NCBI GenBank assembly: GCA_033065855.1
Contig: JAVXUO010002747.1
Location: 605,668 to 669,667 of the forward strand
Length of the DNA: 64,000 nucleotides
Direction of reading: 5' to 3'
DNA from: Escallonia rubra
Lineage: Eukaryota > Streptophyta > Magnoliopsida > Escalloniales > Escalloniaceae
Under the pieces are notes generated by a model that was not told where the DNA came from, did no database searches, and saw only the letters and a list, made by a program, of their open reading frames with translations. Below, piece after piece: positions 59,643 to 61,797 of the stretch (positions are counted from its first letter, which is position 1; each line of letters starts with the position of its first letter). A program made the translations under genes and the position numbers.

Positions 59643-60162
59643 ATGATCACTTTGCTGAATTGACAAGATCTATATGGTAGTCTAACATCACTTATGCAGG
59701 TGACGTGACGTTAGACAACCATTGAATATTTTTTCGTTGTCAACGGAATTGAAGCACTACAACAAACAATAGCAACTAGTGATTTGTGGTACACACGATG
59801 CATTTGCTGGATAAGATAAATGGTCAAAGTGTTTCTTTTTTAATTCTTACCCAAATTCAAGGAGCTAAGGGAGGTTGGATTTTAGGGATTTTGCATGATA
59901 GAAATGGGGGATGTGGTGTTGTTTTACAGATTTAATTTGTTTGATATTATTGAATTTAATACACTATAATGAGGTGATTTAAAATAATAAAGTAGGGATA
60001 AAATTAGAAGCATATGAAAGGCTTTACCCATACCGCTGCTTTCTCTTTGTAATAGTATATAGATAGATATCCATATAGTTGCATGCGTTTTCTTATTGAT
60101 GAGGTCAAGTAGCCGTCTTACACTGCCTTTCTTTGCCATCGTTTTAAGCAACAAAATATAAA

Positions 60163-61581
60163 GGGATAACTAGCGAATGACCCCCCGTACTATACACGGT
60201 GTGCGATTCCCCCCCCCCCCACTTACAGAATTGGGCACCTTAGACGAAAACCGTTAAATTTAACAGCGCGTGGTCAACACGCGTTGACTAACGATTGTTT
60301 TTTGTAAATGACATTTTTACCCATTCTGTTAGGGGTAATTACTAATGCCCCCATGTACTATATACGGTATGCGATTTCTCCCCCCCCACGTCAAACATAA
60401 CCACTTAACCCCCCACACTTACGAAAAATTGGGTACTTTAGACGGGTCTGTTATGAATATTCATGAAATGACCAAAATACCCTTATTTGCTTTCCCTATT
60501 TAAGTTTAATACCATTCTTTCGACTTCTTTTTCTCTCCTCTCAGACTTTTTACTCAATCCCACATGCACACACTCCACGCACACCCAGCACACACACACA
60601 CACACTCCACTCACACCCAGCACACAGACGCGCATCCACTGCAAACATACACACACGCTGCTCGCTTGCTGCTGTGGTGGCAATGTCATCACGAATCTGG
60701 TGCAGCCTCATCGGCGTGTAGCCGGTCATGGTGGTCATGGGACGCTGCTTGGCGCGATGTTGCGGATTGGGGTGGCACGACGACGGAGGTTAGACCTGCG
60801 ATTTGGGGACGTGGTCGTCAATCGTGGTGGCAGGGATCTGGACGGATGTGCGGCAATCAGAAGTCGATAGCCTGTGTCTGTGGGGATAGATGTTACCGGT
60901 GTTGATTGAGTCGGTCGGTTGGTGGCCGATGAAGAAGCCCCACTGGCTTGCAGACGCAAAGCCGTGGGAAATGGCAGAGATGAGGCAACTCATGACGATG
61001 TGTAGCCGGACAGTATAAAGTTGGGGGAGTTGGCCGGAGTGGTGGTTACTGTGACGCTGATCATGGTAGTTGTTGCGCCGGTGATATACCAACGACAATC
61101 GTGGTTCCTTTTTTTTTTGTGTAACTCCCTGGTGGTCGGAGAAAAAGACCAGTGGTTGTGCTCAGTGAATCACCAATTGTAGCAGGGTTGACCAGATGAG
61201 GAGGTGCAAATTACGTCAATCCCTTGTTTGCGGTGAATCTAGTAGCGCAGAATGGGGTGGGGGACTGGTCTGACGGGTGTGGGGGGGAAGGAAGGTGGGG
61301 AGGGTCATGGGCAAAATTGTCATTTAAATTTAACGGTTTTCATCTAAGGTGCCCAATTTCTGTAAGTGTAAGGCGGTTTAGTGGTTAATTTTGAAGTTGA
61401 GGGAGAGAAATTACACACCGTGTATAGTACAGGGGGTCGTTAGCTAATAAGGAAATAAGTGTATTTTGGTCATTTCACGCTATTCATAACGGACCCATCT
61501 AAGGTGCCCATTTTCTGTAACTGTGGAGGGGGGCAAATCGCACAACTTGTAAAGTAGAGGGGGTCATTTGCTATTTAACCC
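60163..61581. mobile_element. Mutator-like element with double, interleaved termini and perfect 9-bp TSD
   Basis: The outer ends are GGGATAACTAGCGAATGACC and, reverse-complemented, GGGTTAAATAGCAAATGACC. They are flanked by identical AAATATAAA at 60154-60162 and 61582-61590. A second pair of related ends lies inside (left from about 60332, right ending about 61450). The interior (about 60490-61300) is low complexity with ACAC and GGTGG-rich parts, without transposase. The 9-bp duplication points to the Mutator superfamily. Confidence 0.8.
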
Positions 61582-61797
61582 AAATATAAAAGGTTTGCTT
61601 TATTTCTTCTCATTAAATGAGATTAGTTTGTGGCGGAAGAGTCCGAGGCCCTGCCATATTTTGGGCCACTCACTACTTAATCTTGGTGTAGTACCCTCGG
61701 ACCTCTCGATTTGGGTTCTTAACATTGTTAGTAAGTATAATATTTTTGAACCATTTTAGGTTGGGGTGAAATTACATGCGTGTCCAACGACTCTAAT

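Follow-up and report, generated by a model that had tools for sequence, protein, structure and literature searches.

A mobile Mutator-like element with doubled, interleaved ends, probably formed from two members of one family by inverted nesting

The window, the whole 64,000-nucleotide stretch analysed here (C2120:605668–669667, from a genome searched over 566 Mb), holds a 1419-bp element at 60163–61581. A perfect 9-bp duplication, AAATATAAA, lies on both flanks, a coincidence far beyond chance and just where the sequence-only reading had placed it, around the outermost pair of ends. The parts of the locus are as follows.

60154–60162, no strand: left 9-bp target duplication AAATATAAA, read from the window; also found at the same insertion in L009, on contig C2121
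60163–60331, + strand: outer-left end, made of a core at 60163–60246 (of the inner flavour in this copy) and an A subterminal part at 60247–60331
60332–60494, + strand: inner-left end, a core starting GGGGTAATTA followed by a B subterminal part; its start is the first base of the putative nested unit
60495–61305, no strand: non-coding body (cargo) of the putative nested unit, matching the body of the relative L066, reversed relative to the outer A end
61306–61450, − strand: inner-right end, an A subterminal part and an inner-flavour core whose first ~7 bases are missing at the junction
61451–61581, − strand: outer-right end, a B subterminal part at 61451–61495 and an outer-flavour core at 61496–61581
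61582–61590, no strand: right 9-bp target duplication AAATATAAA, read from the window

Each of the four ends consists of a core of about 110 bp, alike in all four, and a subterminal part of type A (GAAAACCGTTAAATTTAA...) or type B (GGGTCYGTTATGAATA...ATGACCAAAATAC). Read inward, the left side carries A and then B and the right side B and then A, giving the order A B ... A' B'. An inverted-repeat search of the window element bears out this interleaving, which had been proposed from the letters alone: A pairs with A (60229–60263 with 61324–61358, 97%) and B with B (60426–60459 with 61481–61514, 85%; 60464–60492 with 61449–61477, 93%). The core comes in two flavours, outer and inner. Matched by core flavour, the ends of most copies pair as a nest, outer to outer and inner to inner; the window copy has a core of the inner flavour at its outer-left end.

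A spacer of about 28 bp (ACTTCAAATTTAAGCACTAAACC...), which in other copies sits between a C-tract and CACTTACAG, is missing from the two outer ends of the window copy (at 60212 and 61525). The spacer was considered as a marker of end type and rejected, the other copies showing its loss to be common to the outer ends of the window copy and of L009. Loss of the same spacer at both outer ends fits homogenisation of those ends. L009 itself (C2121:7467–10094) is the same insertion with the same flanks, 97% identical, and represents a haplotig, an allele or an overlapping contig end.

With the window element as query, 286 matches were returned from the genome (the best 40 of 916 first-look candidates were scored), and 39 matched places other than the window were fetched for end mapping. 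Two ends facing each way were present in 38 of the 39, the exception (L036) having no outer right end. The full A,B/B,A order was found in 27 of the 39, while in 11 (L037–L047) the inner-left end is cut before its B part; an 'A' label first given to this cut end was a classifier artefact, and the end is now left unclassified. Genome-wide motif searches allowing up to two mismatches gave 215 B sites, 311 A sites and 413 inner-core sites. Places were sampled from about the first 100 matches listed per motif (12, 16, 16 and 14 places), so that the census is a biased sample. Among the later 14 places both ends were in view in 10, all of them A/B; L095, L098 and L102 are incomplete, and L093 keeps its outer B subterminal part, with the core replaced by unrelated sequence.

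Fetched copies and motif-found places together gave 90 classified end groups. Subfamily 1 (30 of 90) has the A B ... A' B' order with outer-flavour outer ends, subfamily 2 (16 of 90) a cut inner-left end and subfamily 3 (21 of 90) a single inner end, also cut; there were in addition three window-type groups, three free two-ended groups and a remainder of single or incomplete types. We set aside four haplotig-like duplicates (L009 of the window copy, L029 of L027, L044 of L040 and L069 of L061), leaving a non-redundant set of 76 elements with ends on both sides in view. Two places have a more complex structure. L078 is longer, at 2.1 kb: part of its body is duplicated internally, and it carries a remnant of a fifth end. 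L018 (1985–3370) has a composite followed by a second element facing the opposite way, which has a 23-bp flank, ATTTGGAATTGAGCATTTTTTGT, on both its sides and no 9-bp duplication of its own.

The target duplications identify the pair of ends that moves. Around the outermost pair, a perfect 9-bp duplication was present in 57 of the 76 non-redundant elements, and one with at most one mismatch in 66; control positions shifted outward by 25–70 bp gave 0 of 296 perfect and 2 of 296 with at most one mismatch. For the 49 elements with at least two ends per side we found no 9-bp duplication, one mismatch allowed, around the inner pair (0 of 49), around the outer-left/inner-right pair (0 of 49) or around the inner-left/outer-right pair (0 of 49). 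The composite, not a lone insertion, is the mobile entity: it sits at dozens of unrelated places, and at each of them it has a duplication of its own on the outside. It transposes as a whole unit and has done so in many copies, as the sequence-only reading had supposed of the hybrid unit. Its proposed search for further copies with this end order succeeded many times over, with 9-bp duplications outside only; the outcome it would have counted against itself, a lone window copy with separate A and B duplications, did not emerge from the copy census.

Subfamilies 2 and 3, in which the inner ends are damaged or missing, are likewise multi-copy with perfect duplications, and along subfamily 1 conservation does not peak at the inner ends. 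That subfamilies have spread despite damage to their inner ends suggests that doubled ends are dispensable for amplification in the window-element family.

The census also clarifies what A and B are. Five free two-ended relatives (L066, L077, L087, L097 and L103), all that were found in this biased sample, each pair an A end with a B end. Four are flanked by perfect 9-bp duplications (TTAAGGATT in L066, TTCAATAAA in L077, TTGAAATAA in L087 and ATATAAGTA in L097), and the duplication of L103 is imperfect, with two mismatches in nine. Among the outermost pairs of the 76 elements, 74 are A/B and none is B/B. The sole A/A pair (L036) is one by detected ends only, its outer right end being gone and unrelated sequence standing in its place; L083, the 76th outermost pair, combines an A end with an unclassified other end and has a perfect duplication. 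Because the five free relatives carry A on one side and B on the other, A and B mark the two ends of a single family. The bodies of the free members differ: L077, L087 and L097 share part of theirs, L103 shares stretches with L066, and the body of L066 is shared with the composite.

This last match gives the composite its structure. Positions 459–1434 of L066, read from A to B, match the composite consensus from 1135 back to 202, that is, reversed, at 80.4% over 996 bp; the inner unit is thus collinear with a free member and inverted. As L066 carries the body reversed, the composite can be read as outer A, [inner B – body – inner A], outer B, and appears to be one member inverted inside another of the same family. 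Inverted nesting would yield the A B ... A' B' order from polarity alone, with no need for the mixing of families. At about 80% likeness, L066 is best taken as a relative of the composite, not its progenitor.

Comparison of A ends is consistent with this arrangement. Pairs of free members are alike to 231–400 bp from the end (400 being the maximum compared), whereas each free member and the composite are alike only to 195–206 bp; the shorter likeness suggests that the nested unit interrupts its host's A end. On the left the nested unit is complete down to its first base; on the right about 7 bases are gone, and it joins B sequence across a junction with few shared bases (TTA). Of 80 groups, 74 could be read at the right junction, and 73 of these have one form, L052 being shorter; at the left junction 52 of 80 could be read, with CTGTTA in 45 and variants in 7. 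These shared junction forms point to a single founding event for the composite.

We consider the best explanation, with a probability of about 0.82, to be a non-autonomous Mutator-like element made from two members by inverted nesting, whose outer pair of ends moves the whole. One member would have landed, inverted, some 201 bp into the A end of a second. A single deletion would then have taken away the opening ~7 bases of the nested member's A end, the duplication that flanked this member and what remained of the host body, reaching to about 157 bp from the host's B end. The A B ... A' B' product would keep a functional outer A/B pair and transpose as a unit, so that 9-bp duplications lie outermost only, with the inner ends as passengers; the transposase that mobilises it would be a MULE enzyme acting in trans. 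We infer an insertion and a single later deletion because together they explain the interruption of the A end, the intact left end and the ~7 bases missing at the right. The proposal is weakened by the lack of a duplication flanking the inner unit, so that the insertion step is not directly seen, and none of the elements examined is a free outer parent whose body is uninterrupted.

The main rival holds that an A/B-ended member copied a whole relative as cargo during repair, in the manner of a Pack-MULE, which would leave the same final anatomy. Cargo exchange is common in this family, the free members holding different bodies between the same ends and subfamily 3 consisting of the composite's right side with new cargo at the left; the right junction, with only TTA shared, resembles a repair joint, and the inner duplication is absent. 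Against it, the left junction lies precisely at base 1 of the nested end and interrupts A sequence that the free members share further in, a form that is simpler under insertion. We regard such a capture as possible but a good deal less probable than nesting by insertion.

A chimera of an A/A and a B/B family, formed by recombination or terminal capture as the sequence-only reading proposed, draws on the difference between A and B beyond the core and on the interleaved subterminal pairing. The five free members are nevertheless A/B, as are both nested levels of the composite, and the simple A-A and B-B elements that this idea calls for did not appear: there was no B/B and no intact A/A element among the 76. 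We therefore judge this origin very unlikely. In-place duplication of ends by replication slippage, with later rearrangement, seems less probable still. Such duplication does occur, since L074 (2156–2475) has a tandem pair of outer A ends on one of its sides, but slippage predicts A A ... B B where the composite has A B ... A' B', and the inner ends are those of a complete inverted member that has a body of its own. As for two separate insertions overlapping at this one site, for which nothing speaks beyond the presence of four ends, the copy census refutes them: the same four-ended unit recurs at dozens of unrelated places, each copy with a separate duplication on the outside.

If the composite did form from two members by inverted nesting and then moved by its outer pair, the cores show how the two pairs of ends have fared since. 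The outer cores align over about 114 bp in most of the 39 copies. Within copies, outer cores are 93.2% alike (about 77 bp compared) and inner cores 83.9% (48 elements); between copies, over 300 random pairs, outer-left and outer-right cores are 91.8% alike and inner-left and inner-right cores 83.9%. In a core tree, several of whose deep supports are modest, outer-left and outer-right cores are intermixed, while the inner-left ends fall in a single clade with 33 members (support 0.907) and the inner-right ends in another group; the two ends of L066 fall beside the inner-left clade, at a weak support of 0.295. With L066 as the root, a tree of the inner unit has L052 and L078 as its earliest branches and the window copy as the next; all three carry an inner-flavour core at their outer-left end. 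The outer-left core was probably overwritten later from the outer-right core, the ends in use having been homogenised and the buried ends not.

The genome abounds in MULE transposase domains: a profile search with PF10551 (MULE transposase) gave 3309 first-look candidates, and the best 150, which were scored, all exceeded the cut-off; many of the matches listed have near-identical scores and open frames of 777–783 codons. At L060 a MULE transposase domain and an outer B end lie about 6 kb apart, and a matching left end that would make it an autonomous partner was sought there and not found. No coding element with the window family's ends was found among the examined loci, and three frames from L066 and L087 had no Pfam match at E 0.01. 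At L050, L059, L064 and other subfamily 3 loci, new GC-rich sequence, possibly gene-derived, adjoins the left A end and may represent cargo exchange in progress.

The window element shows two structural features of TIR-type MULEs, a duplication of 9–11 bp and long TIRs (about 100 bp or more). It also has an external and an internal TIR per side, all of 50 bp or more and less than 600 bp apart (the window ends lie at 60163, 60332, 61450 and 61581), a duplication on the outside only and several copies at different sites. It is thus a tandem-TIR MULE in the sense of Ferguson and Jiang (2012; PMC3310237), one whose distinguishable ends record its formation. In the available text of that paper, such elements are described from tomato, Arabidopsis, rice and maize; their origin, by slippage, recombination, nested insertion or acquisition, is left open, and the absent inner duplication is taken as evidence against nested insertion. 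As described there, they resemble ours in having two similar long tandem ends per side, a 9–11-bp duplication outside only, several copies, no autonomy and a similar size (their peak is at 1300–1400 bp). In the same text their ends are not reported as left and right types, whereas the window family has A/B polarity, and this polarity and a free member with a reversed body point here to inverted self-nesting. Elements with one extra end are seen there as poor movers; here subfamilies 2 (16 groups) and 3 (21 groups) have amplified.

Like Pack-MULEs, the free members of the window family hold unrelated bodies between the same ends; the composite differs in that its cargo is apparently another member of its own family. 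In rice coding-MULEs with a nested Os0548 MITE (PMC3903597, as far as its available text describes them), host and nested DNA element amplify as a unit, as here, but the nested element is an unrelated MITE, where ours would be of the same family, inverted and with four related ends. The open-access papers searched yielded PMC3310237 and PMC3903597 on tandem TIRs, and no description of an inverted self-nested end order. If the left and right ends of an element are distinguishable, their order records the event: slippage predicts A A ... B B, and inverted nesting A B ... A' B'. The window family shows the second of these orders, and its free members serve for comparison, so that inverted nesting within an element's own family, followed by joint spread, would be one way in which double-ended elements can arise. 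More tentatively, and at slightly less than even odds, we suggest as a general matter that tandem-TIR MULEs can arise by inverse self-nesting and that homogenisation acts on the pair of ends used for transposition; if so, the buried ends of such elements are a molecular fossil, and homogenisation of their cores is a readout of the ends that the transposase uses.
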